From Candidatus Roizmanbacteria bacterium (GTDB lineage Bacteria; Patescibacteriota; Microgenomatia; UBA1406; GWC2-37-13): a DNA stretch of 64,000 nucleotides. Shown here piece after piece: positions 53,675 through 64,000 of the stretch. Position 1 is the first letter of the stretch. Each line of letters starts with the position of its first letter. The DNA is taken from positions 1-64,000 of the forward strand of contig JACRPE010000021.1 of the NCBI GenBank assembly GCA_016214055.1. Reading direction: 5' to 3'. The notes below the pieces were generated by a model that saw only the letters and a list, made by a program, of their open reading frames with translations, was not told where the DNA came from and ran no database searches. A program made the translations under genes and the position numbers.

Positions 53675-54220
53675 TTAAGCTGTTGTCTTAGCTTTCTTAC
53701 CGGGCTTAATTCTTAATTTCTCTCCCGCATATTTAATCCCTTTTCCTTTGTATACATCCGGTTTTTTAATCATCTTTACTTTAAAGGCAATCTCTCCGAC
53801 CAATTGCTTATTAATTCCCTTGATGCTTACCTTATTATTTCCCTCAACGGCAAACGTAATACCCTCAACCTTGGTAAATACAACCGGGTGATTATATCCG
53901 ACCTTAAAAACGAGGTCTGCCCCTTGTAATTTTACATTAAATCCGGTTCCCACTACTTCCAATTTTTTCTCCCATGGTGTTTCAACACCGGCAACCGCGT
54001 TTGCGACCAGACTCCGATATAACCCATGAAGTGATTTTTGATGTTTTGAGTTATTTGCGCGTGAAAAAATAAGAGTATCTTTTTCCTTGGCAACCGTGAT
54101 CCCGGGAGTCATGGGGATAGCAAGGGTACCACCCGTTCCTTTGACGGTGACTTTTCCCTCTGCGATCTCAACAGACACAGACTGCGGGACAATAACTGGT
54201 TTTTGGCCTATTTTTGACAT
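53675..54220 (-). CDS. rplF: 50S ribosomal protein L6 (uL6)
   Basis: 181 residues with two L6 repeats: SKIGQKPVIVPQSVSVEIAEG at the start, and PDVYKGKGIKYAGEKLRIKPGKK at the end (typical PExYKGKGIRY). Located near the factor-binding site of the 50S subunit. One base after the rpsH stop region. Confidence 0.95.
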   Translation of the reverse strand: MSKIGQKPVIVPQSVSVEIAEGKVTVKGTGGTLAIPMTPGITVAKEKDTLIFSRANNSKHQKSLHGLYRSLVANAVAGVETPWEKKLEVVGTGFNVKLQGADLVFKVGYNHPVVFTKVEGITFAVEGNNKVSIKGINKQLVGEIAFKVKMIKKPDVYKGKGIKYAGEKLRIKPGKKAKTTA

Positions 54221-54221
54221 A

Positions 54222-54608
54222 TTACCAAAGCGAAAATAATAACTCCCCTCCTAATTTAATTTTTTTTGATTCCTTATCGGTCATAATACCCTTTGGCGTT
54301 GAGAGAAACGAGTATCCCATACCGCCTAAAACTGATTTCAATTTTTTGTAAGCAATATATTCCCGTTTTCCGGGGGTTGAGAATATCTGAACTCCCGTGA
54401 TGGCCGGTTCACCGTTTTTGTAAAGTAACGTAACGGTAATTCTTTTTTTCAAGTCTCCCACGACCTCAACCTCTTTTATAAATCCCAGTTTCTTTAACTT
54501 TTCAATTACCACCATTTTATACAGTGAATGGCTCATGGCAACTGAGTCCTTGCGGGACATGTATCCGTTTTTTATATTTATTATCAAATCTACAATCGGG
54601 TCATTCAT
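54222..54608 (-). CDS. rpsH: 30S ribosomal protein S8 (uS8)
   Basis: 128 residues. DPIVDLIINIKNGYMSRKDSVAMSHS (typical DPIADMLTRIRNA) and STPKGIMTDKESKKIKLGGELLFSLW (typical STSKGIMTxxEAR...GGEVLCxVW; no Cys here). Binds 16S rRNA and in E. coli represses the spc operon. rpsS lies upstream of it here instead of rpsN. Confidence 0.95.
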   Translation of the reverse strand: MNDPIVDLIINIKNGYMSRKDSVAMSHSLYKMVVIEKLKKLGFIKEVEVVGDLKKRITVTLLYKNGEPAITGVQIFSTPGKREYIAYKKLKSVLGGMGYSFLSTPKGIMTDKESKKIKLGGELLFSLW

Positions 54609-54627
54609 AAGATCATTTCCTCAATTA

Positions 54628-54912
54628 TTAAGTTTTATCCATGGTCTTCTTGGTAATCTTTCCGTGTCCTTTAAATGTGCGGGTAAAAGAAAACTCGCCT
54701 AACCGGTGTCCCACCATACCTTCTGATATGAGGACTTCAATGTGTTTTCGTCCGTTATGCACTCCAATTTTGTGTCCAACAAACTCAGGCGCTACCTGTG
54801 ATGCGCGCGCCCATGTCTTAAGCGTCTCACGTGCTCCCGTTTGCTTCTGTTGCATGATTTTCTTCATTAAATTTTCATCGATATAGGGGCCTTTTTTCAG
54901 TGATCTACTCAT
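54628..54912 (-). CDS. rpsS: 30S ribosomal protein S19 (uS19), in an unusual position
   Basis: 94 residues. [59 protein letters not shown] are the family's motifs. Normally rpsS lies between rplB and rplV in the S10 operon. Here rplB (58307-59083) is followed directly by rplV (to 58300), and rpsS sits between rpsN and rpsH in the spc part. The gene looks intact. 3 bases after the rpsN stop. Confidence 0.95.
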
Positions 54913-54915
54913 AGG

Positions 54916-55101
54916 TTACCAGGAAATTTTTCTAACTCCGGGAATATCCCCGGCGAGTGCACGTTCGCGAAAACATATGCGGCACAAACCAAACCTTCTC
55001 ATATATGCACGTGCCCTTCCGCACAATCCACATCTGTTTCTGTGTCGGACCGTGTATTTTTGTTTGTGCAGGAATTTAACCTCATCTGATGTTTTTGCCA
55101 T
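54916..55101 (-). CDS. rpsN: 30S ribosomal protein S14 (uS14), zinc-binding type
   Basis: 61 residues from ATG 55101 ([24 protein letters not shown]). [21 protein letters not shown] holds two CxxC pairs for zinc, the short type Z form. A longer frame from 55125 would overlap the rplE end and is not used. Needed for late 30S assembly. Confidence 0.94.
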
Positions 55102-55102
55102 A

Positions 55103-55639
55103 TTAGGTTTTAAACGGAACTCCAAGTAATGTAAATAATTTCTTTCCCTTTTCTTTGCTTCCGGCTGTCGTCACCACAGTTACTTGCAAGCCTCTTATTT
55201 TATCAATTTTATCAAACTCTATTTCGGGAAATATTGTCTGTTCGGTAAATCCAAGATTCAGATTACCATGCTGATCGACTGTGGTATCAACAATTCCCCT
55301 GAAATCACGAAGCCGGGGTATGACTATGGTGACAAGCTTCTGAACAAAGTGATACATCTGGTCTCCTCGAAGAGTAACCTTTACTCCGATTGCTTGACCC
55401 ATTCTGATTTTGAATGCGGAAACTGATTTTTTTGCTTTAGTAACCACCGCTTTTTGACCAGCAATGAGGGTGATCTGCTCCTGAATCTTTTCGATGACGT
55501 TTTTGTTGGAAACTGCCTCACCTGCTCCCACATTGATAACCACTTTAAGCATGCGAGGAACTGCCATCGGATTAGTGATCTTTAATTCATCCATCAATTT
55601 TTTCTTGATCTCCGTGTTGTATTGTTCTTTAAATGTCAT
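55103..55639 (-). CDS. rplE: 50S ribosomal protein L5 (uL5)
   Basis: 178 residues. [23 protein letters not shown], then [31 protein letters not shown], and RDFRGI, all typical. The end [22 protein letters not shown] agrees with the family. Binds 5S rRNA with L18. Confidence 0.95.
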
Positions 55640-55657
55640 ATGGTTTTACAATGTTGA

Positions 55658-55963
55658 CTAAAGTGCGCTTTTGCATTTTTTACATATCCTTGTTTTCTTG
55701 TTTTTTTCGACCTGGTATCCGACCCGTGTGGTGCTTTTGCACTTAGGACACAACAGCATTACTTTGTTAGTCGCAAGGGGACGTGGAATCTCCACTACTC
55801 CACCTTGGGGCATTTTTTCATTTTTTCTTATATGTTTCTTATAAAGATTAATACCAGGAATGAGGACAGTGCTTTGTCTTTTATACACTTTTTCAACCAC
55901 ACCCTCTTTTCCTTTATTCTTGCCTGAAATAATTTTTACCTTGTCTCCTTTTATGATTCTCAT
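55658..55963 (-). CDS. rplX: 50S ribosomal protein L24 (uL24)
   Basis: About 101 residues from ATG 55963 (MRIIKGDKVKIISGKNKGKEGVVEKVYKR). The KOW motif is at the start; NLYKKHIRKNEKMPQGGVVEIPRPL follows, and a CPKCKSTTRVGYQVEKNKKTRICKKC zinc-like tail with two CxxC pairs ends it. The start at 55963 sits 1 base after the rplN stop; the frame to 55993 overlaps it. Starts 50S assembly. Confidence 0.93.
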   Translation of the reverse strand: MRIIKGDKVKIISGKNKGKEGVVEKVYKRQSTVLIPGINLYKKHIRKNEKMPQGGVVEIPRPLATNKVMLLCPKCKSTTRVGYQVEKNKKTRICKKCKSAL

Positions 55964-55964
55964 G

Positions 55965-56339
55965 TTAATATATCTCCTCTGCCAAACTTGCAATCTTATT
56001 AAAGCCGCGGTCTTTTACCTCTTTTGCGATGGGACCGAATATCCGTGACCCCTTGGGATCTTTCACCGCTTTTTCAAGTAATATTACGCATGCATTATCG
56101 TCAAACCTGATATAACTTCCGTCTTTTCGTTTGTGCTCCTTATGAGTTCGTACTACCACTGCTGATAATTTTTCTCCTTTTTTAACTTGACCATAGGGAA
56201 TCGCTTCAATTACCGACACGTTTATAACCTCACCAACACGTGCGATTTTCTTGTTTCCCCGCCCGGGCATACCAATCATACTCACCTTTTTGGCGCCTGA
56301 GTTGTCTGCCACATTGAGCATTGATCTTAATTGCAACAT
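55965..56339 (-). CDS. rplN: 50S ribosomal protein L14 (uL14)
   Basis: 124 residues. MLQLRSMLNVADNSGAKKVSMIG, RKDGSYIRFDDNACVILLEKAVKDPKGSRIFGPIAKE: the standard motifs, ending ASLAEEIY (typical SLAPEVL). In place in the spc operon, 14 bases after rpsQ. Confidence 0.95.
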   Translation of the reverse strand: MLQLRSMLNVADNSGAKKVSMIGMPGRGNKKIARVGEVINVSVIEAIPYGQVKKGEKLSAVVVRTHKEHKRKDGSYIRFDDNACVILLEKAVKDPKGSRIFGPIAKEVKDRGFNKIASLAEEIY

Positions 56340-56353
56340 ACTTTTGCTTTAAA

Positions 56354-56599
56354 TTATTGAGCTTTCTTATCTAATTTTTGTATAACAATAAATTTTTTCT
56401 CTTTTGACAAGGGTCTTGTTTCCTGGATGACCACGTAGTCATTCATTTTTATGCCTTTGATTTCATTGTGTGCCTTATATTTTTTGTGTCTCAAAATGAC
56501 TTTGTGGTATTTGGGATGGCGAAACTTCCTCTCGACTAAGACAACCACAGTCAGACTCATTTTTGTTGAAACTATTTTTCCGGTCAATGTTTGTGCCAT
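56354..56599 (-). CDS. rpsQ: 30S ribosomal protein S17 (uS17)
   Basis: 81 residues, OB fold. MAQTLTGKIVSTKMSLTVVVLVERKFRHPKYHKVILRHKKYKAHNE (typical GxVxSdKMdKTvvV...HPlYgKyixrskKyxaHDE), then GDYV-like NDYVVIQETRPLSKEKKFIV. 2 bases after rpmC. Confidence 0.94.
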   Translation of the reverse strand: MAQTLTGKIVSTKMSLTVVVLVERKFRHPKYHKVILRHKKYKAHNEIKGIKMNDYVVIQETRPLSKEKKFIVIQKLDKKAQ

Positions 56600-56601
56600 G
56601 G

Positions 56602-56805
56602 TTATTTTCCCTTCATTTTCTTTTGAACCAGTGAGGTCAAAAGAACTGCTAATTTTCTTCTTTTTTTTGAAATGCTATTTGTGTCTTTTGACGGGTTGAC
56701 CCTTGAACTTAAACTCATAGTTGCAATTTCCTGTCTTGCACTCTGTGCTTCCTTTTCCAAAGATGCAATCGATTTATCGTCGTGTTCTTTAATATTTTTT
56801 TTCAT
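56602..56805 (-). CDS. rpmC: 50S ribosomal protein L29 (uL29)
   Basis: 67 residues: a long N-terminal helix with SIASLEKEAQSARQEIATM and the motif SSRVNPSKDTNSISKKRRKLAVLLTSLVQKK, which fits the family's RxxRRxIARxxTxL segment. Divergent in the middle; position between rplP and rpsQ makes it secure. Near the peptide exit tunnel. Confidence 0.88.
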   Translation of the reverse strand: MKKNIKEHDDKSIASLEKEAQSARQEIATMSLSSRVNPSKDTNSISKKRRKLAVLLTSLVQKKMKGK

Positions 56806-56807
56806 GA

Positions 56808-57218
56808 TTATATTTCCTTTGTTACAAACTTTCCCTTAACTGACAATTTTGATCCTGCGCTTTCCAAAACATCTCGGGCTTCCTGTTGGCTTATACCGTC
56901 AATTTCAAACAAAATGCGACCCGGGACAACTGACGCTACAAAATATGCAACGTCACCCTTACCTGCACCCATGGTGACTTCGGGCGGTTTCTTGGTAAAG
57001 GGCTTATCCGGAAAAATCCGAATCCAGAACTTCCCCACTTTTCGTGTCGCACGGGCTAATATAACTCGGCATGACTCTATCTCACGATCTTTAATCCAAC
57101 CGTTTGACATCACCTTATATCCAAAGCTCCCAAAAGAAAGATTTTGTCCTTTGACTGCAATCTTTCTCCAGATTCCTCTGAATTGTTTCCGATATTTCTG
57201 TCTCTTGGGGGCTAACAT
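56808..57218 (-). CDS. rplP: 50S ribosomal protein L16 (uL16)
   Basis: 136 residues. MLAPKRQKYRKQFRGIWRKIAVKG, the RVILARATRKVGKFWIRIFPDKPFTKKPPEVTMGAGKG block, and VPGRILFEIDGIS. Lies close to the A-site tRNA in the 50S subunit. In S10-operon order after rpsC (4-base gap). Confidence 0.95.
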   Translation of the reverse strand: MLAPKRQKYRKQFRGIWRKIAVKGQNLSFGSFGYKVMSNGWIKDREIESCRVILARATRKVGKFWIRIFPDKPFTKKPPEVTMGAGKGDVAYFVASVVPGRILFEIDGISQQEARDVLESAGSKLSVKGKFVTKEI

Positions 57219-57222
57219 ATAT

Positions 57223-57858
57223 TTATCTACAAAGCCAAACTTTAACTCCTATATATCCTGATTTTGTAAGTGCCGGGAATCGCGCAAAATCGACCAGCTC
57301 GCGGATGGTCGAGGTGGGAATAGTCCCTTGAAAATATTTTTCCCTTCGGGAAATCTCAGCACCGTTGATACGTCCGCCAATTTGGATCTTGACTCCCTTA
57401 CCCCCTGCCTCCATTACCCGATTCATTGCCTGATGGATGATGGAACGATGGGAAAAACCTTTTACCAACTTCTCGGCGATAAGCTGTGCGACGAAGTATG
57501 CGCTTAAATAGGGCTTTTTTACCGGTTCGATCTTCAATTCAATTTTAAGCTCTTTGTCTTTCTTATTGATAATTTCATCTTGGATATATTTTTTTACTTC
57601 CTCAAGTCCTTTTCCACCACGACCGATTATCATACCCGGTTTGACTGAATAGATGATAGCAGTAATTTTTTTTATTGCCCTCTCTATGTCAATCTGAGTG
57701 ACTGAAGCAAAAGCGAATTTTTCAAGGAGCTTCCTACGGACTCTGATGTCTGATACAAGGGTTTCCCGGAAGGTTTTCTTATTACTGAAATACCATCTGG
57801 AATTCCAGTTATATACGATACCGATTCTTAAACCTTTTGGATCAACTTTTTGTCCCAT
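57223..57858 (-). CDS. rpsC: 30S ribosomal protein S3 (uS3)
   Basis: About 211 residues. GQKVDPKGLRIGIVYNWNSRWYF at the start; the KH domain VKPGMIIGRGGKGLEEV has the GxxG loop; GVKIQIGGRINGAEISRREKYFQGTIPTSTIRELVDF follows. The ATG at 57858 overlaps the rplV stop by 17 bases; the ATG at 57873 adds five residues. Part of the mRNA entry site. Confidence 0.95.
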   Translation of the reverse strand: MGQKVDPKGLRIGIVYNWNSRWYFSNKKTFRETLVSDIRVRRKLLEKFAFASVTQIDIERAIKKITAIIYSVKPGMIIGRGGKGLEEVKKYIQDEIINKKDKELKIELKIEPVKKPYLSAYFVAQLIAEKLVKGFSHRSIIHQAMNRVMEAGGKGVKIQIGGRINGAEISRREKYFQGTIPTSTIRELVDFARFPALTKSGYIGVKVWLCR

Positions 57859-58300
57859 TATTTTTGCTCGCAACCTTCTTTACTGAAGGCAATACTTTAA
57901 CTTCTTTTTTCGATTCAATTTTTAATTTCGTATTCTCAATCTTAACTGATGGTATGTTCTTTTTCGCCTGCTTTACAGTCAAAACAATCTTTATGTGAGA
58001 GTATTTTTTCTTGTAAGGTTTTGCGGTTCCTCGTCCTCCCGGCCTAAAACGTTTCAATGCATTTCCTTGTTCTACCGTGAAAAGCTTAAATTCTAACAGA
58101 TCATCGCTCACTTTTAAAGCATACTTTGCATTATCAATTGCCGATTTGATTGCTTTATAAAAAACCCGTGCGCCTTTTTTGGGGGAATAAAACAATCGGA
58201 CCAGAGATTCACTCGGGGACATTTTTTTTATTTCAGGTAAAATAAACCGTAATTTTTTTGCCGAGATGTGTAAATTTTTGAAATATGCGGTTGCTTCCAT
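57842..58300 (-). CDS. rplV: 50S ribosomal protein L22 (uL22)
   Basis: 152 residues. AYFKNLHISAKKLRFILPEIKKMSPSESLVRLFYSPKKGARVFYKAIKSAIDNA (typical L22), and the loop GNALKRFRPGGRGTAKPYKKKYSHIKIVL, the hairpin that reaches the exit tunnel. A Lys/Val-rich tail of about 40 residues is added at the end. It directly follows rplB; the rpsS that usually separates them is elsewhere. Confidence 0.95.
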   Translation of the reverse strand: MEATAYFKNLHISAKKLRFILPEIKKMSPSESLVRLFYSPKKGARVFYKAIKSAIDNAKYALKVSDDLLEFKLFTVEQGNALKRFRPGGRGTAKPYKKKYSHIKIVLTVKQAKKNIPSVKIENTKLKIESKKEVKVLPSVKKVASKNNGTKS

Positions 58301-58306
58301 AATAGA

Positions 58307-59083
58307 TTATGCGTGTCTTGATATAACGACAAACTTATTACTCCATTTATTTTTTGTGCGGGTTCGTGTACCCCGTGCCGACTTGCCCCAAGGAGTCTTG
58401 GGATGCATACCTTCACCTACGCGGCCCTCGCCTCCACCATGCGGATGACTTCGGGGGTTTTGAGCGGTGCCACGGACGGTTGGCCTGATGCCCATGAGAC
58501 GTGAACGACCTGCTTTTCCTATGATTCGGTCTTTAAACGGAATGTTTCCCAGGATACCGATGGTTGCATAACAATCCTCGTGGAATCTTTTTACTTCTCC
58601 AGAGGGAAGTTTGATATGAACGAATGGGCTTTCTTTTGCAACGATTGATGCTGTGGTTCCCGCTCCTCGGATAAACTTCCCCCCCTGAAGAGGATGGATT
58701 TCAATGTTGTGCACTTCAATACCTATGGGAATATTTTTTATTGGTAGTGCATTACCCCTTTTGATATCTACATTTTCCCCCGATACCACTTCATCCCCTA
58801 TTTTCATATCATGGGGTTGAAGGATATATCTCTTTTCTCCATCGGTATATCCAATGAGCGCAATAAATACGTTACGGTTTGGATCATACTCTATACTCTC
58901 TACCTTACCGACTACATTAAATTTGTCTCTTTTGAAATCAATCTCGCGGTAATATCTTTTTTGTCGGCCTCCTTGGTGTCTGACTGATACATGGCCAAAA
59001 GAATCACGTCCTGAATGTTTTTTCAGAATTGATATCAGGCTTTTTTCCGGATTGTGTGTTTTTGGTATGTTATATGCTTTCAT
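58307..59083 (-). CDS. rplB: 50S ribosomal protein L2 (uL2)
   Basis: 258 residues, about 15 fewer than usual at the N-terminus. RYYREIDFKRDK, NVFIALIGYTDGEKRYIL, and GAGTTASIVAKES are typical. The highly conserved loop next to the peptidyl transferase centre normally reads GTAMNPVDHPHGGGEGR; here it reads GTAQNPRSHPHGGGEGR. His and the HGGGEGR part are kept, but Met, Val and Asp are replaced by Gln, Arg and Ser. The C-terminal end is KFVVISRHA. Confidence 0.95.
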   Translation of the reverse strand: MKAYNIPKTHNPEKSLISILKKHSGRDSFGHVSVRHQGGRQKRYYREIDFKRDKFNVVGKVESIEYDPNRNVFIALIGYTDGEKRYILQPHDMKIGDEVVSGENVDIKRGNALPIKNIPIGIEVHNIEIHPLQGGKFIRGAGTTASIVAKESPFVHIKLPSGEVKRFHEDCYATIGILGNIPFKDRIIGKAGRSRLMGIRPTVRGTAQNPRSHPHGGGEGRVGEGMHPKTPWGKSARGTRTRTKNKWSNKFVVISRHA

Positions 59084-59099
59084 GTTTATTAGTCCTCAA

Positions 59100-59387
59100 T
59101 TATACCTGCGGAAAGAGAGATATCGTCCCCTCTTTAACTGTTACCATAGCAAGTTTGTTGTCCATTGCTTTTTTTGCGGTCATTTTTTTTCCTACTCTTT
59201 TAATCTTGCCCTTACGAATTACTATTCTGATTCCGGCAACTTTTACACCGTAAATCGTTTCCACGGCATGTTTGACCTGGTTTTTATTGCTTTGTTTATC
59301 CACTTCGAATGTATATACTTTTTTCTGCGCCGCCGAGGTGGCTTTTTCCGTCAAAACAGGTGCGATTAAAATCGTATTAATTTTCAT
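59100..59387 (-). CDS. rplW: 50S ribosomal protein L23 (uL23)
   Basis: 95 residues. ILIAPVLTEKATSAAQKKVYTFEVDKQSNKNQVKHAVETIYGVKV is the typical sequence; docking site at the tunnel exit for trigger factor and SRP. Ends FPQV. Overlaps the rplD stop by 11 bases. Confidence 0.95.
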   Translation of the reverse strand: MKINTILIAPVLTEKATSAAQKKVYTFEVDKQSNKNQVKHAVETIYGVKVAGIRIVIRKGKIKRVGKKMTAKKAMDNKLAMVTVKEGTISLFPQV

Positions 59388-60069
59388 GCTTTTTTACAAA
59401 ATGATTTTCTAATTCCTTGATTGCGTCTCCTAAAAATATAATTTTTGCCGTCTTTAAAACAGTGTAGGCGTTCAGTGAGTGCACGGAAACTGACATGGCA
59501 TTTTTTAAATTACGTGCGGCAAGACCAAAATTATCAGCATCGGCTTTTGGAAGCACAAACAAAACCTTCATTTTTTCATACTTCATGACGTTTAAGAAAT
59601 TTGAGATTACTTTCGTTTTTGAGGTAACTTTCTTCATGTCGGTAGTAAGACTGTTTATCGCGTCCTCTTTCAGTTTGAGAGTCAAGGATCCGAAAAGAGC
59701 AAGCTTTTTTTGTTTTTTATTCATGAGAAGCTTATATTCCTTGGGCTGTGGTCCTCCCACTACTCCTCCCCCTTTAAAAATAGGGGCGCGCTGTGAACCA
59801 TGGCGCGCTTTACCGGTGCCTTTTTGCTTGTATATTTTTTTTGTGGTTCCGGCAACTTCAGCACGGGTTTTGGTTGCGGCGTTTCCTTGCCTTTGATTGG
59901 TCTGATGGACCCGTACGTACTGAGTAAGTAAAACCGGGGAAGTTTCCACATCAAAAATTCCTTTAGGAGGAGTTATGTCTTCTAGGCGTACACCATTCAG
60001 ATCAAATTGAGCTATGACACCTGATGATTTTTTTACTGATTTTGTTATTTCTTTTTTTTGAGTTGCCAT
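59377..60069 (-). CDS. rplD: 50S ribosomal protein L4 (uL4)
   Basis: 230 residues. RQGNAATKTRAEVAGTTKKIYKQKGTGKARHGSQRAPIFKGGGVVGGPQPKEY is the extended loop that lines the exit tunnel. In E. coli, L4 represses its own operon by binding the S10 leader; here a leader with a terminator precedes rplC. An N-terminal extension of about 30 residues with Lys/Ser is present. Confidence 0.95.
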   Translation of the reverse strand: MATQKKEITKSVKKSSGVIAQFDLNGVRLEDITPPKGIFDVETSPVLLTQYVRVHQTNQRQGNAATKTRAEVAGTTKKIYKQKGTGKARHGSQRAPIFKGGGVVGGPQPKEYKLLMNKKQKKLALFGSLTLKLKEDAINSLTTDMKKVTSKTKVISNFLNVMKYEKMKVLFVLPKADADNFGLAARNLKNAMSVSVHSLNAYTVLKTAKIIFLGDAIKELENHFVKKHEN

Positions 60070-60084
60070 ATCTATTAATTAAAT

Positions 60085-60762
60085 TCAAGCCTTCTTCCTT
60101 ACCTCAAGGAGAGCTCCGGTTGCCCCAGGAACAAGACCTTTCACTCTGACTCCTAACTCTGTTATTTCCATGACTTGAAGTCCCTGGAGGGTCACTCTTT
60201 CATTACCCATGCGACCGGCCATTCTTTTTCCTTTAAATACACGTCCCGGAGTGGTGGTCATACCGATTGCACCGGGTGCTCTTAACCGATCTGACTGTCC
60301 GTGAGTCTTGGGTCCTCCTTTAAATCCATGTCTTCTTACCACTCCTTGAAAACCTTTTCCTTTAGATATGCCGGATACGGAGACCAATTCACCGGGTGCA
60401 AACATATCGGCCGGCTTAATTTCTTGACCGATTTCGAATTTTTTCTCACCAATTACGATTGACTGTTTTCCTGCCTCGTTAAGATATTGAATTTTGCTTT
60501 CTCCCTTATCCAGACGAAACTCACGCAAAAAACGAAGCGGGTCTTTTACGCCCGCTTTTGTGATTAACCCCTTAACTGATTGTTTGATTTGTCGTACTTT
60601 CTTAAATCCAAGCTGTACGCTCCCATATCCATGAGTATCGGGTGACTTGATGGAAATGATAAAGCAGGGAGAAGTTTTGATGAAAGTTGTTGGAATACGC
60701 TCACCTTTTTGATCAAATAGTTGAGATTGTGTTGACTTTTCTCCGAGAATAAACCCATTCAT
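60085..60762 (-). CDS. rplC: 50S ribosomal protein L3 (uL3)
   Basis: 225 residues. GFILGEKSTQSQLFDQKGERIPTT, then KGFQGVVRRHGFKGGPKTHGQSDRLRAPGAIG (typical GKGFQGVIKRHxFxxxxxSHGxSxxHRxPGSIG), then GRVFKGKRMAGRMGNERVT. First gene behind its own promoter and attenuator (60788-60875). The end KGLVPGATGALLEVRKK is typical. Confidence 0.95.
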   Translation of the reverse strand: MNGFILGEKSTQSQLFDQKGERIPTTFIKTSPCFIISIKSPDTHGYGSVQLGFKKVRQIKQSVKGLITKAGVKDPLRFLREFRLDKGESKIQYLNEAGKQSIVIGEKKFEIGQEIKPADMFAPGELVSVSGISKGKGFQGVVRRHGFKGGPKTHGQSDRLRAPGAIGMTTTPGRVFKGKRMAGRMGNERVTLQGLQVMEITELGVRVKGLVPGATGALLEVRKKA

Positions 60763-60787
60763 AGCTTTTATTTAACCTATAATTACC

Positions 60788-60814
60788 AAAAAAATAAGCC
60801 CCAGATTGGGGCTT
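60788..60814 (-). terminator. Terminator-like hairpin in the rplC leader
   Basis: On the minus strand: AAGCCCC, loop AATCT, GGGGCTT, then A and seven T residues. It lies about 25 bases upstream of the rplC start codon and after the leader promoter, so it can act as an attenuator of the L3-L4-L23-L2 operon. Confidence 0.85.
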
Positions 60815-60837
60815 TATTCCAATCGTAGGAAAAACAT
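60814..60837 (-). CDS. Possible 7-aa leader peptide before the rplC attenuator
   Basis: ATG to TAA, encoding MFFLRLE, from ATG 60835-60837, which lies 9 bases after TATAAT. The stop codon overlaps the first base of the terminator stem. Short enough to be chance, but the layout (promoter, near-leaderless short ORF, terminator, gene) repeats that of the three leaders at 8.4, 12.7 and 16.3 kb. Confidence 0.3.
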   Translation of the reverse strand: MFFLRLE

Positions 60838-60846
60838 GCGAATCAC

Positions 60847-60875
60847 ATTATATAACACATATATCAATTGTTCAA
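60847..60875 (-). promoter_or_regulatory. Promoter of rplC operon (TTGAAC-17-TATAAT)
   Basis: On the minus strand, TTGAAC (60870-60875), a 17-base spacer and perfect TATAAT (60847-60852). It lies between rpsJ and rplC, so the S10 operon begins at rplC here and rpsJ belongs with tuf. Confidence 0.8.
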
Positions 60876-60883
60876 GAAGAAAA

Positions 60884-61192
60884 CTACATCTTTACTTCTA
60901 TCTCAACTCCGGCAGGCAATTCCAAATGCATAAAAGAATCAATCGTCTGATTGGTCGGATTGACGATATCAATCAGTCTTTTATGAGTTTTCAACCCAAA
61001 ATGCTCACGCGCATCCTTGTCAATGAAGGGAGACTTATTTACTACGAAGACCTCTGTCTTTGTAGGCAGTGGAATCGGACCGATGATTGAGGCACCTGTT
61101 CGAATAGCGGTGTCAACCAGCTTCTGACACGTATCGTCGATGAGACGATAGTCATATGCCTTTAATTTTATCCTAATCCTCCCTTTTGACAT
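60884..61192 (-). CDS. rpsJ: 30S ribosomal protein S10 (uS10)
   Basis: 102 residues. [41 protein letters not shown] is the typical N-terminus; [40 protein letters not shown] the typical end. Also NusE, a partner of NusB in antitermination. Follows tuf by 35 bases; the next gene rplC has its own promoter. Confidence 0.96.
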
Positions 61193-61227
61193 ACCTGTAA
61201 AAGTGCAAAATAAATTAAATTCTTATA

Positions 61228-62412
61228 TCACTTGGTGATCTTGGTCATTACGCCTGCTCCAACTGTGTGGCCGCCTTCGCGAATGGCAAACTTCATACCT
61301 TCCTCAAGTGCAACTGGATAGATAAGTTTTCCGGTAATCTTTACGTTGTCACCCGGCATAACCATCTCGACTCCTGCGGGAAGATTCAACTCTCCCGTAA
61401 CATCTGTTGTTCTGATGTAAAACTGGGGTCGGTATCCTTTAAAGAATGGAGTGTGTCGTCCACCCTCTTCTTTTTTAAGTACATAAATCTCTGCCTCAAA
61501 CTCCGTGTGAGGAGTGATTGAGCCCGGTTTTGCGATGACCTGTCCCCGTTGTACGTCTTCCTTTTCAATTCCTCGAAGCAAAAGGCCGACATTATCACCC
61601 GCTCGAGCCTCGTCCAGTGTCTTTCTAAACATCTCAACTCCGGTGATTACTGTCTTTTTGGTTTCGGTAAGGCCAATCAACTCGACTTCATCATTAACTT
61701 TAAGAATTCCTCGTTCTGCGCGACCTGTTACAACCGTTCCTCTTCCTTGGATCGTAAATACATCCTCAACCGGCATAAGGAATGGCTTATCAAGGGCTCG
61801 AACCGGATCAGGAACATAATCATCTACCGCCTTCATAAGATCTTCAATTGCCTTAATGGATTCCGGATCATCTTGAAGGGCCTTCATGGAAGAACCTTTG
61901 ATGACGGGTACTTTATCTCCGGGGAAACCGTATTTTGTAAGAAGATCACGGACTTCCATCTCAACGAGGTCAAGAATTTCCTTATCAGCAACCATATCCA
62001 CCTTATTAAGGTAGACAACAATTGCCGGAACGTTAACCTGTTTTGCAAGAAGAATGTGCTCTCGAGTCTGAGGCATTGGACCATCCGGAGCTGAGACGAC
62101 GAGAATTGCTCCGTCCATCTGAGCGGCACCGGTGATCATGTTCTTAATATAATCTGCATGACCGGGAGCATCAATGTGTGCATAGTGTCTTTTCTCAGTT
62201 TCGTATTCTGAGTGATGGAGATTAATAGTGACGCCACGTGCCCGTTCTTCGGGGGCTTTGTCGATATCCTCATATTTCAAAAATTTTGCTAGACCTTTTT
62301 TGGAAAGTACGTAGTGGATTGCTGAAGTGGTTGTGGTTTTTCCATGATCCACGTGACCAATGGTTCCAATATTCAAATGTGGTTTATTCCTTTGAAAAAC
62401 ACCGTCTGCCAT
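61228..62412 (-). CDS. tuf: Elongation factor Tu
   Basis: 394 residues. GTP-binding motifs GHVDHGKTT (near 18-26), DAPGHADY (usual form DCPGHADY; Cys is Ala), and NKVDMV. The effector loop is [20 protein letters not shown]. Domains II and III are complete, ending [25 protein letters not shown]. Brings aminoacyl-tRNA to the ribosome. A TATAAT at 62427-62432 is a likely -10 with a poor -35. Confidence 0.97.
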
Positions 62413-62484
62413 AATAAAAAAATAAAATTATAATTAACAATAAAGAAAAAGCACCAACCATAAGTTTGACTTTTGCAAACGAAG

Positions 62485-62513
62485 TTGATTTTTTTTCCTG
62501 ACTTCTCTATGAT
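62485..62513 (+). promoter_or_regulatory. Promoter of DUF1189 gene (TTGATT-17-TATGAT)
   Basis: TTGATT at 62485-62490, 17-base spacer, TATGAT at 62508-62513. The ATG at 62521 falls on the predicted start of transcription (leaderless). Confidence 0.65.
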
Positions 62514-62520
62514 AATTGGT

Positions 62521-63384
62521 ATGAGGAGAAAAGTCAAGACCTTTTTGCATGTATTTGTCAGCAGTGTTGTTCCCCAAACATCCTATTATGCAAAAATTCT
62601 TAAAAGTAAATTCACATTCTCTCTACTATATTCATTTATTCTCTTGTCACTCGTCACAGGTATTGTGTTCGTACTCATATCCTATCAGGTAGCACGAAAT
62701 AATATAGGAAGCATAAAACAGTGCCTTAACAGTTCTATGAATGAAATACCTTCAAATTTCGTTCTGAATGTCCGGGATGGATTACTGTCAACCAATCATG
62801 AGCTGCCACTTTTTGTGTGGTTTAACTGCGATGAGCGGGTCCAACTTCTGGCGGTAGTGGATGAACGCGGGGTAAGTAAAAATATTAATTCTTTCGGTGC
62901 CCAGCTTTTGGTAACCGGATCAGAAATAGTTTTGAAGTATAAAACAAATACCTATACCGTTCCCATCAATAAATATATTTCCAACCTCCATCTGGACAAG
63001 CAGAGCATAATCGCTTATGTAAATCAAGGATTTGAAATACTCTCGTTTTATATTCCTTTTTTTGCCTTGGCTTTGGTTTTATCAACCCCTCTTTTGGTGT
63101 ATTTGGCAACCATCATGACTATTTTATTTTCCAGTCTCTGTGTCCGCCTTTTCTTCCACCTGTTTAGAAAACACTACTCGTTCAAAAAAACTATTCAGAT
63201 CGGTCTTCATTCCTGTACTCTTCCCCTGCTCACCCTCATCCTTTTTGTATTGTTTCCCATACACATCCTCAACACCTATATCTTATTCTTTGCACTCGTT
63301 TTTATATTCCAACTTGTTGCAGTCTATGAAGGTCACTATATAAATATACCTCACCACCCGTCACCCCATCATAAAAGAGCGTAG
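62521..63384 (+). CDS. DUF1189 family membrane protein
   Basis: About 287 residues from ATG 62521 (MRRKVKTFLHVF). First hydrophobic segment near 40-60 (FSLLYSFILLSLVTGIVFVLIS), an exterior domain of about 120 residues, then four hydrophobic segments (SFYIPFFALALVLSTPLLVYLATIMTILF; the rest). The SFKKTIQIGLHSCTLPLLTLILF part is the DUF1189 signature (xxxxxALHAxTxPxxL). Function unknown. A start at 62473 is ruled out because the promoter lies downstream of it. Overlaps the convergent nuclease gene by 24 bases. Confidence 0.75.
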   Translation: MRRKVKTFLHVFVSSVVPQTSYYAKILKSKFTFSLLYSFILLSLVTGIVFVLISYQVARNNIGSIKQCLNSSMNEIPSNFVLNVRDGLLSTNHELPLFVWFNCDERVQLLAVVDERGVSKNINSFGAQLLVTGSEIVLKYKTNTYTVPINKYISNLHLDKQSIIAYVNQGFEILSFYIPFFALALVLSTPLLVYLATIMTILFSSLCVRLFFHLFRKHYSFKKTIQIGLHSCTLPLLTLILFVLFPIHILNTYILFFALVFIFQLVAVYEGHYINIPHHPSPHHKRA

Positions 63385-64000
63385 TCTGCAATAGTTGCAT
63401 GCGGGATCCTCACATGTTTTGTCAATAAATGAAAGATTTTTGATTTCGCCGGCCACCGTATATATGAGTTTCTCTAAATCATCCTCTTCCTGTTTACTTA
63501 TCGTAAAACGTTCACTCTGATACTCGCCTTTTTCATTTTTTTCGACAAATTCAATAATTCCTTCAACCACATTCATTTTGAGCTTTCCTTCTTTATACCG
63601 GTCGATAAGTATTTTGTAAAAGACAAGCTGGCGTTTGTAATCACCCTTGCTTGATTTGATGGTACCTTCAATATAGGAACGTGTTTTTGGTTTTCCCGTT
63701 TTAAAGTCATATACCGCAACGTCCCCTTTTTTATCCAGTCTCTCAATCATGTCAATTTTACCGTTTAAGAAGATCCCTTCGGCAAAGCGTATTCCCTTTA
63801 TATTTAATTCACTTTCCAAGCCGTGCGGCCAGCGGAACGCTCTTGCATTTACATACTCCTTCAAAACGCTCTCTCCTTTTTTTGTCAGTTCCGCAAGTTC
63901 CTGTTGATTGAGGGGTTGCTTATCCAGGGCTTCTCTGTATTTTTGTATGACAAAGTTCTCATCAACCTTGTTTTTTTCCCGTTCAAGAAGATATAAATTC
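63361..64000 (-). CDS. PD-(D/E)XK nuclease domain protein (partial, 5' end beyond the window)
   Basis: The frame is open from the stop at 63361 to the end of the window, so the true start lies outside; the first M-like codon at 63864 is a TTG inside the gene. The visible part, about 213 residues, is the C-terminal nuclease domain of RecB/AddB/UvrD-like proteins: GKIDMIERLDKKGDVAVYDFKTGKPK carries the D...DxK active site, and YKRQLVFYKIL the QxxxY motif. Near the end is CEDPACNYCRLRSF, with Cys residues in positions of the 4Fe-4S cluster of AddB-type nucleases (only three visible here). It may be the end of a long UvrD-like helicase-nuclease. Confidence 0.85.
   Translation of the reverse strand, partial: NLYLLEREKNKVDENFVIQKYREALDKQPLNQQELAELTKKGESVLKEYVNARAFRWPHGLESELNIKGIRFAEGIFLNGKIDMIERLDKKGDVAVYDFKTGKPKTRSYIEGTIKSSKGDYKRQLVFYKILIDRYKEGKLKMNVVEGIIEFVEKNEKGEYQSERFTISKQEEDDLEKLIYTVAGEIKNLSFIDKTCEDPACNYCRLRSFMMG

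Follow-up and report, generated by a model that had tools for sequence, protein, structure and literature searches.

A conserved transcription attenuator very probably occupies the gap between rpsJ and rplC in a Candidatus Roizmanbacteria genome and its relatives, as judged from sequence comparison. It consists of a promoter, a mini-ORF that opens close to the -10 hexamer, and an intrinsic terminator hairpin whose centre can alternatively pair with an upstream antiterminator strand. The conserved anatomy, the in-frame positions of start and stop codon, the complementarity of the two mutually exclusive helices, and the attachment of the unit to rplC all emerge from this comparison. Ribosome occupancy of the mini-ORF probably sets termination, with either sign; for the majority layout we lean, with modest confidence, towards the version in which occupancy causes termination and thereby limits the part of the S10 operon from rplC onward. 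CPR bacteria have reduced genomes and ribosomes without some of the usual parts, and to our knowledge it has not been worked out how they balance ribosome production. With a mini-ORF and a terminator placed before r-protein genes, the production of further ribosome parts may be decided by the ribosomes themselves. If true, a leader reading ribosome supply, and not free r-protein, would give another answer to the classic question of how r-protein production is adjusted to ribosomes.

Promoter, Mini-ORF, and Terminator Ahead of rplC

The window, i.e., the whole stretch of 64,000 nucleotides analyzed here, belongs to a small genome (1.2 Mb in 26 contigs); the named records that match its S10 best are from Candidatus Roizmanbacteria (93 and 92% identity). 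On the minus strand, tuf is followed by rpsJ, the gap, rplC, rplD, and rplW, and then by more r-protein genes; the Pfam search covered tuf, rpsJ, rplC, rplD, and rplW. With rpsJ ending at 60884 and rplC starting at 60762, the gap measures 121 nt. The original prediction had placed a promoter, a 7-codon leader ORF, and a terminator ahead of rplC, and all three were found in this gap on the minus strand, in a feature that extends from 60875 to 60786 and thus slightly past the 60788-60875 initially delimited. Its parts and neighbors are the following:

61228..62412, minus strand: tuf (EF-Tu), upstream gene (Pfam GTP_EFTU, D2, D3)
60884..61192, minus strand: rpsJ (S10), immediately 5' of the leader (Pfam Ribosomal_S10)
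60870..60875, minus strand: -35 hexamer TTGAAC (promoter scan; TTGAC-like in many relatives)
60847..60852, minus strand: -10 hexamer TATAAT (promoter scan; exact TATAAT in 63 of 80 distinct gaps)
60814..60837, minus strand: leader mini-ORF MFFLRLE*, 7 codons (ATG placement kept in 45/50 leaders)
60819..60824, minus strand: antiterminator 5' strand GATTGG (complementarity; inside the ORF here, pairing over 6 bp only)
60804..60809, minus strand: antiterminator 3' strand CCAATC, within the terminator hairpin (complementarity)
60796..60814, minus strand: intrinsic terminator hairpin AAGCCCCAATCTGGGGCTT (terminator scan and conservation)
60811-60799, minus strand: hairpin centre CCCCAATCTGGGG (conserved core)
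60786..60795, minus strand: terminator U tract (sequence and terminator scan)
60085..60762, minus strand: rplC (L3), the first gene under the proposed control, then rplD, rplW, and other r-protein genes (Pfam Ribosomal_L3, L4, L23; gene order)

The -35 and -10 hexamers are separated by a spacer of 17 nt. The mini-ORF reads ATG TTT TTC CTA CGA TTG GAA TAA (60837-60814) and is followed in the gap by GCCCCAATCTGGGGC and then a T run; ATTTTTTTGG lies directly 3' of the hairpin AAGCCCCAATCTGGGGCTT. Its ATG is found 9 nt past the -10 hexamer. Since the usual distance from -10 to the start of transcription is 6-8 nt, transcription would be expected to begin at ~60840, 1-3 nt ahead of the ATG, and the window's mini-ORF would therefore be leaderless or nearly so. 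In most relatives the 5' strand of the antiterminator is longer, CCRGATTGG.

Viewed in this single sequence, the promoter, ORF, and terminator are near chance level: scans of positions 54000-64000 returned 28 promoter-like sites versus 23.1 expected and 11 terminator-like sites versus 9.4 expected (the leader's terminator topping the list), and TATAATN{6,10}ATG occurs 9 times in the window versus 5.67 expected. Folding of the window's leader gave z values of -2.74 and -2.83 against shuffles, and a search with the pattern of the rplC unit identified it as single-copy in the window's genome. The comparison with relatives, on the other hand, is clearly far from chance.

Relatives and Attachment to rplC

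For this comparison, 72 genomes of the family were searched, 69 of which had an L3 match, and stretches around rplC were taken from 64 of them, leaving out L3 matches at contig edges (G029, G049, G050, G051, and G054). Added to these were named loci, namely the best 80 of 334 S10 relatives. The 146 sequences used, 22 of them without S10 or L3 in the stretch, provided 124 gaps, 80 of which are distinct. An exact TATAAT is present in 63 distinct gaps and missing from 17, two of which (L013 and L041) do carry the hairpin. Fifty of the 63 TATAAT gaps bear a hairpin of the CCCCAATCTGGGG type, and these are the 50 leaders counted in the following; in the 50 segments, leader length is 53-137 nt, i.e., about 50-140 nt. 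The 13 TATAAT gaps lacking such a hairpin comprise five with a T run after a hairpin in the ORF region (discussed below), L047 and L060, and six loci from outside Roizmanbacteria. At the genome level, the pattern GATTG...CCCCAATCTGGGG was found in 40 of the 72 family genomes at one site each (one genome reports the same site twice), as opposed to none for the reversed pattern. In 39 of the 40, comparison of coordinates places the end of the match ~10-145 nt ahead of the L3 hit; the remaining genome, G063, is without an L3 hit and has its match near a contig end.

The gap and the gene order would also allow a plain terminator of tuf-rpsJ which an rplC promoter happens to precede, with the ORF as a by-product, and the near-chance counts of promoters and terminators in the region are compatible with this explanation. 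We nonetheless consider it very improbable. In 8 of the 50 leaders rpsJ and rplC lie 929-2855 nt apart, and promoter, ORF, and hairpin still adjoin rplC; the reading frame and the position of its stop are conserved; and the rplC promoter would run directly into the terminator. The same attachment, together with the promoter of its own, upholds the earlier assignment of the control point to a position after rpsJ, belonging to rplC. The companion proposal that rpsJ groups with tuf is compatible with the gene order, which is its whole basis. In 42 of the 50 leaders, 10-46 nt separate the end of the hairpin's 13-base core from the assigned rplC start (10-143 nt across all 50); being so near the rplC start codon, the terminator hairpin could also hinder rplC translation.

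Start and Stop of the Mini-ORF

An ATG is found 7-10 nt past TATAAT in 45 of the 50 leaders, compared with a mean of 4.1 and a maximum of 11 in 1000 shuffles; the letters between the -10 hexamer and the ATG vary while the ATG is kept. The in-frame stop is equally constrained: it falls 7-15 nt before GATTG in 37/45 ORFs (1/45 and 6/45 in the other two frames), and 7-11 nt before it in 28/45 (1 and 1 in the other frames; shuffle mean 2.3, maximum 8). The shuffles ignore shared descent, and clustering addresses kinship only in part; with one leader per 75%-identity cluster of the ORF region, the ATG position is retained in 31/33 and the stop position in 24/31, against 1 and 3 in the other frames. 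Clustering at 65% and 60% identity left 8 and 5 clusters, with the stop position kept in 4/7 and 1/4 representatives and in 0 for the other frames; as these levels collapse nearly all leaders together, only the 75% level with its 33 clusters is informative.

The 45 ORFs are 7-25 codons long, most often 11 (20/45), and end with TAA (29), TAG (10), or TGA (6). The peptides are dissimilar across subgroups: L, F, I, S, K, and G are the commonest residues, in variable order, and inspection of the 45 ORFs by eye found no shared residue or codon run. Amino-acid-specific attenuation of the trp/his kind was rejected on this ground, the 45 ORFs having neither codons nor a peptide in common. With start and stop both kept in frame and the content free to vary, the pattern is hard to explain unless ribosomes use the mini-ORF.

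Starts close to the -10 hexamer seem to be in ordinary use in the window's genome, since 8 of the 11 ATGs in matches to TTGA-(19-21)-TATAAT-(7-10)-ATG open frames of at least 74 codons; the reversed control matched once. Leaderless or near-leaderless starts thus seem to be common there. As side observations, tuf starts 14 nt after a TATAAT (62412-62432, minus strand), and two genes from other parts of the genome, which by eye are rpsO-like (L154) and phosphomannomutase-like (L147), start 7-10 nt after one.

Antiterminator versus Terminator

GATTGG and the letters upstream of it (CCGGATTGG or CCAGATTGG in many leaders) are complementary to CCAATCTGG, the centre of the terminator hairpin. Antiterminator and terminator are mutually exclusive because both use the loop of the hairpin and part of both arms. 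According to a script, the longest uninterrupted antiterminator helix spans 8-11 bp in 44/50 leaders and 5-6 bp in 6/50, the window's copy (6 bp) being among the latter; pairing was significant at p<0.05 relative to dinucleotide shuffles of the upstream part in 43/50.

In models of the full-length RNA at equilibrium, the terminator was favored (probability >0.5) in 38/45 free leaders and in 41/45 with a modeled ribosome at the stop. Equilibrium folding was thus rejected as proof of a switch, as the finished hairpin wins in most free leaders; with the ribosome adding little, a switch would have to be kinetic. When the RNA was cut just past CCAATCTGG, leaving the 3' arm incomplete, the antiterminator had a probability >0.5 in 43/45 free leaders, which dropped to 15/45 upon placing a ribosome footprint on the stop codon. 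In these models, the antiterminator is able to arise before the terminator, and a ribosome standing at the stop would in many cases keep it from arising. Folding with a ribosome footprint thus predicts that ribosome position changes termination; in two leaders, masking in the full-length model favored the antiterminator.

In the majority layout, a promoter within the rpsJ-rplC gap would start an RNA that has a start codon in its first few bases, so that a ribosome could begin without a Shine-Dalgarno site. It would translate the mini-ORF, mostly of 7-18 codons and with a seemingly irrelevant peptide, up to a stop codon which in the usual form lies ~3-8 nt before CCRGAUUGG, the strand pairing with the hairpin's centre CCAAUCUGG. 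If no ribosome has loaded, the antiterminator would form first on the emerging RNA and polymerase would read into rplC; with a ribosome on the stop codon, the strand would be masked, the CCCC/GGGG hairpin would form, and transcription would end in the cell at this point. The net effect would be an operon turned down when ribosomes are plentiful, ribosome supply being the presumed physiological signal. The model gives a precise, testable, sequence-based prediction for bacteria whose cultivation is difficult or impossible, and the defined start codon near a terminator is portable to the test tube or a reporter.

An r-protein encoded in the operon, such as L4 or L3, might instead bind the leader, for example at a hairpin in the ORF region, and thereby shift the balance between antiterminator and terminator. 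Attenuation by r-proteins is a known way of controlling such operons (PMC10931766, in excerpt), the ORF region is prone to folding (mean z -1.45; 30/45 leaders below -1), a GTTCGGGAAC hairpin is repeated in one subgroup, and larger conserved elements are present at this place in some other families (L189, L190, L192, L206, L228, L236, and L239; see below). We nevertheless regard r-protein binding as unlikely: it leaves unexplained the fixed distance from the -10 hexamer to the start codon and from the end of the frame to the antiterminator strand, as well as the fact that the letters of the ORF-region hairpin differ between subgroups. The search with Rfam found no r-protein leader at gathering score in the window, where it matched one tRNA only, and no family in 20 related loci (62000 bases). 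A start codon near -10 combined with a stop beside the antiterminator strand points to a ribosome rather than an r-protein. As a guess by analogy with the trp leaders, the hairpin in the ORF region might serve as a pause hairpin.

Leaders Deviating from the Majority Layout

The 7-codon leader ORF of the original prediction was confirmed as far as start and stop positions are conserved in relatives; the stop of the window's own copy, by contrast, falls after GATTG, not before it. This copy (L001) and that of a congener (L005) are compact in that the stop is downstream of GATTG. In the window's copy the stop touches the hairpin, and the terminator probability was 1.00 for the free RNA and 0.00 with a ribosome at the stop. 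Such a ribosome would cover the terminator and the sign of the response would be reversed, so that the window's compact copy, according to this model, may work the opposite way. L003, the genus's third genome, conforms to the majority layout, its stop preceding GATTG by 18 nt.

In one genus, five leaders (L027, L036, L039, L040, and L043) have lost the second half with its antiterminator; here a T run comes directly after a ATCCTTTTGTTCGGGAAAGAAGGAT-like hairpin in the ORF region, and the ORF extends across this hairpin. This hairpin seems to have become the terminator, and the sign may be reversed in these five half-lost leaders as it may in the compact copies. Both kinds of leader would suit a general scheme in which mini-ORF translation promotes read-through, the ribosome blocking the terminator such that transcription of the operon would require ribosome loading: in the window's copy the modeled ribosome abolishes the terminator, and in the five leaders the ORF crosses the sole terminator seen. 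As an account of the majority we consider this scheme rather improbable, even more so than r-protein binding. In most leaders the stop precedes the antiterminator strand, and masking raised the number of leaders favoring the terminator and diminished that favoring the antiterminator in the shortened RNA, as given above. For the majority layout we therefore retain occupancy-induced termination as our working model.

Five of the 50 hairpin-bearing leaders (L046, L048, L057, L058, and L059) are without an ATG at 7-10 nt. Three of them (L057, L058, and L059) have a GGTTAGTAAG element in common; L059 has an 11-codon ORF starting 19 nt past the -10 hexamer, and L057 appears similar by eye.

Other Families of Microgenomatia

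Across the class, 110 genomes were considered, 107 of them with L3, and 100 gaps were read; two were without a usable rplC start, and, as members of the window's own family, L160 and L161 were left out, giving 96 loci. In six loci (L200, L212, L233, L238, L241, and L257) the rplC start is uncertain, the match beginning late in the query. A script found a terminator at most 130 nt from rplC in 64/96 loci and in 28 of 34 families besides the window's, calls that are doubtful for L177 and L215. By the 130-nt rule, no terminator was found in f6, f13, f27, f28, f34, and f36; in four of these (f13, f28, f34, and f36) the gap measures just 2-33 nt.

The ORF tests were conducted on the 46 of the 64 terminator-bearing loci whose -10 hexamer matches at 5/6 or better. 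An ATG or GTG 7-19 nt past the -10 hexamer was present in 38/46 leaders (16/19 families), compared with 16.7 in shuffles (maximum 26). The ORFs opened by these start codons are 6-15 codons long in 38/38 cases, lengths of 5-15 codons being found in 4/38 and 14/38 for the other frames; in 29/38, the distance from the stop to the beginning of the best antiterminator strand is -12 to +17 nt, versus 7 and 15 in the other frames. Antiterminator pairing reached p<0.05 in 20/61 leaders of other families (3 expected), and with significance in just this share the scheme is not proven for every other family.

Tentatively, and with somewhat less than even confidence, these data may be read as a ribosome gauge that sets r-protein synthesis across Microgenomatia by feedback, with ribosome supply being read directly by mini-ORF initiation near the 5' end of the RNA and no r-protein repressor taking part. 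In this gauge, the mini-ORF would be leaderless or, in some families, would have the Shine-Dalgarno letters GGAGGTG in or near its first codons, the sequences of antiterminator and terminator having turned over repeatedly at constant geometry; this too is a conceivable reading that we hold with reserve. In family f7, CTCGGATGAG stands against CTCAACCGAG inside the hairpin GACCTC-AACC-GAGGTC. In L185, L184, L222, and L233 (single members of f5, f17, f26, and f31), the start has ATGGAGGTG or GTGGAGGTG and the hairpin contains CCTCC; L235, as a separate observation, has GGAGGTAATGG at the leader start and CCTCC in the terminator. With these letters in place, the start region would itself supply the antiterminator strand, and Shine-Dalgarno letters could play this part in L184, L185, L222, L233, and L235. 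Other GGAGG leaders, such as L193, L231, and L241, are without CCTCC in the terminator. Conservation of the f16 peptide (EV-LAT*; L165, L197, and L205) was dropped as evidence for coding, since its last codons belong to the antiterminator strand; owing to this overlap, conservation of ORF codons in some families is not readable as peptide conservation.

The seven loci with larger conserved elements named above and L203 have in common, before rplC, a succession of CAGTAGATCGCGCGTC-like ... ATACGGCGA-like ... ATACTGAGT-like stretches, which in seven of these eight loci is preceded, by eye, by an ORF of 5-6 codons near the -10 hexamer. This is perhaps an undescribed structured leader or an r-protein site; Rfam had no match in the two loci searched, L190 and L206. 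Five loci of two families (L211, L213, L215, L244, and L245) show a motif CACCTGAA ... AAGGAGTCC (GACCTGAAGGCATCTAAGGTC in L215) before rplC and near a T run; no mini-ORF is evident in these five, and Rfam had no match in L213 and L215. By eye, many leaders from outside the class are without an obvious terminator.

Relation to Known Attenuators

The S10 leader of E. coli is located upstream of rpsJ. In that operon, L4 binds a long structured leader and causes termination, most likely together with NusA (PMC10931766, in excerpt). The Roizmanbacteria leader has in common with it the operon and an intrinsic leader terminator, present here by sequence and conservation, that would decide on transcription of r-protein genes. 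The E. coli 5'UTR is long and structured, has an L4 site resembling 23S rRNA, and involves NusA (same excerpt), whereas the leader described here is about 50-140 nt long, lies between rpsJ and rplC, and has a mini-ORF near the -10 hexamer and, as far as the Rfam search reached, no recognized L4 site. Given these differences in position, size, mini-ORF, and recognized r-protein site, we do not file it under the E. coli L4 family. The rplJL and infC leaders of B. subtilis resemble it as r-protein operons under an antiterminator/terminator choice; they differ in that their signal is an r-protein on the RNA (L10(L12)4 and L20, respectively), and the excerpted text of PMC10931766 describes no mini-ORF for them.

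The trp and his leaders are ribosome-mediated attenuators, each of which senses one amino acid. Closest in logic to the Roizmanbacteria leader appear to be ribosome-mediated attenuators such as vmlR of B. subtilis, where a short uORF precedes mutually exclusive antiterminator and terminator structures and ribosome position sets the outcome (excerpt of PMC9226507). vmlR, by the same excerpt, senses antibiotics, has a uORF led by a Shine-Dalgarno sequence, and includes an anti-antiterminator; in the Roizmanbacteria leader, the start is near -10, no Shine-Dalgarno sequence is evident in the window's family, and no anti-antiterminator was identified. From vmlR and the trp and his leaders alike it differs by the lack of marked codons and of a conserved peptide and by its target, an r-protein operon. 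A leader peptide whose start codon is the 5' end of the transcript is known from ilvB of Corynebacterium (C. diphtheriae; excerpt of PMC5784534), which differs as an operon for isoleucine/valine synthesis with a peptide rich in those residues. In the same organism, rpsJ-rplC and nine further genes constitute one operon (PMC5784534, in excerpt), and a uORF attenuator ahead of cysS is on record from a survey of structured RNAs (PMC8632094, in excerpt). Titles and abstracts of open-licence papers yielded no description of r-protein leaders in CPR/Patescibacteria or of a mini-ORF before rplC.

Other Leader-Terminator Units

The expectation that the unit parallels other leader-terminator units was borne out in at least two places, one of them outside the window. 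There (L157, ~1538-1674; G000:C23:83283 onward), a 22-codon ORF MKILSISSSARRTSGEGNIFMS* whose ATG lies 7-10 nt after TATAAT is followed by a terminator-like CCCCTCCAAATCGGAGGGG plus T8 and then by a 449-aa ORF resembling argininosuccinate lyase (argH, by eye). Judging by the Arg-Arg pair, this may be an attenuator that senses arginine by means of a leaderless leader peptide. The other unit is in the window at 12794-12646 on the minus strand, where TATAAT, 12 nt, an ATG opening a 22-codon ORF MTKANLSILIVLFFLNPVRAGI*, and a CCCGCC/GGCGGG terminator succeed each other, followed by a 1356-aa ORF from 12645.
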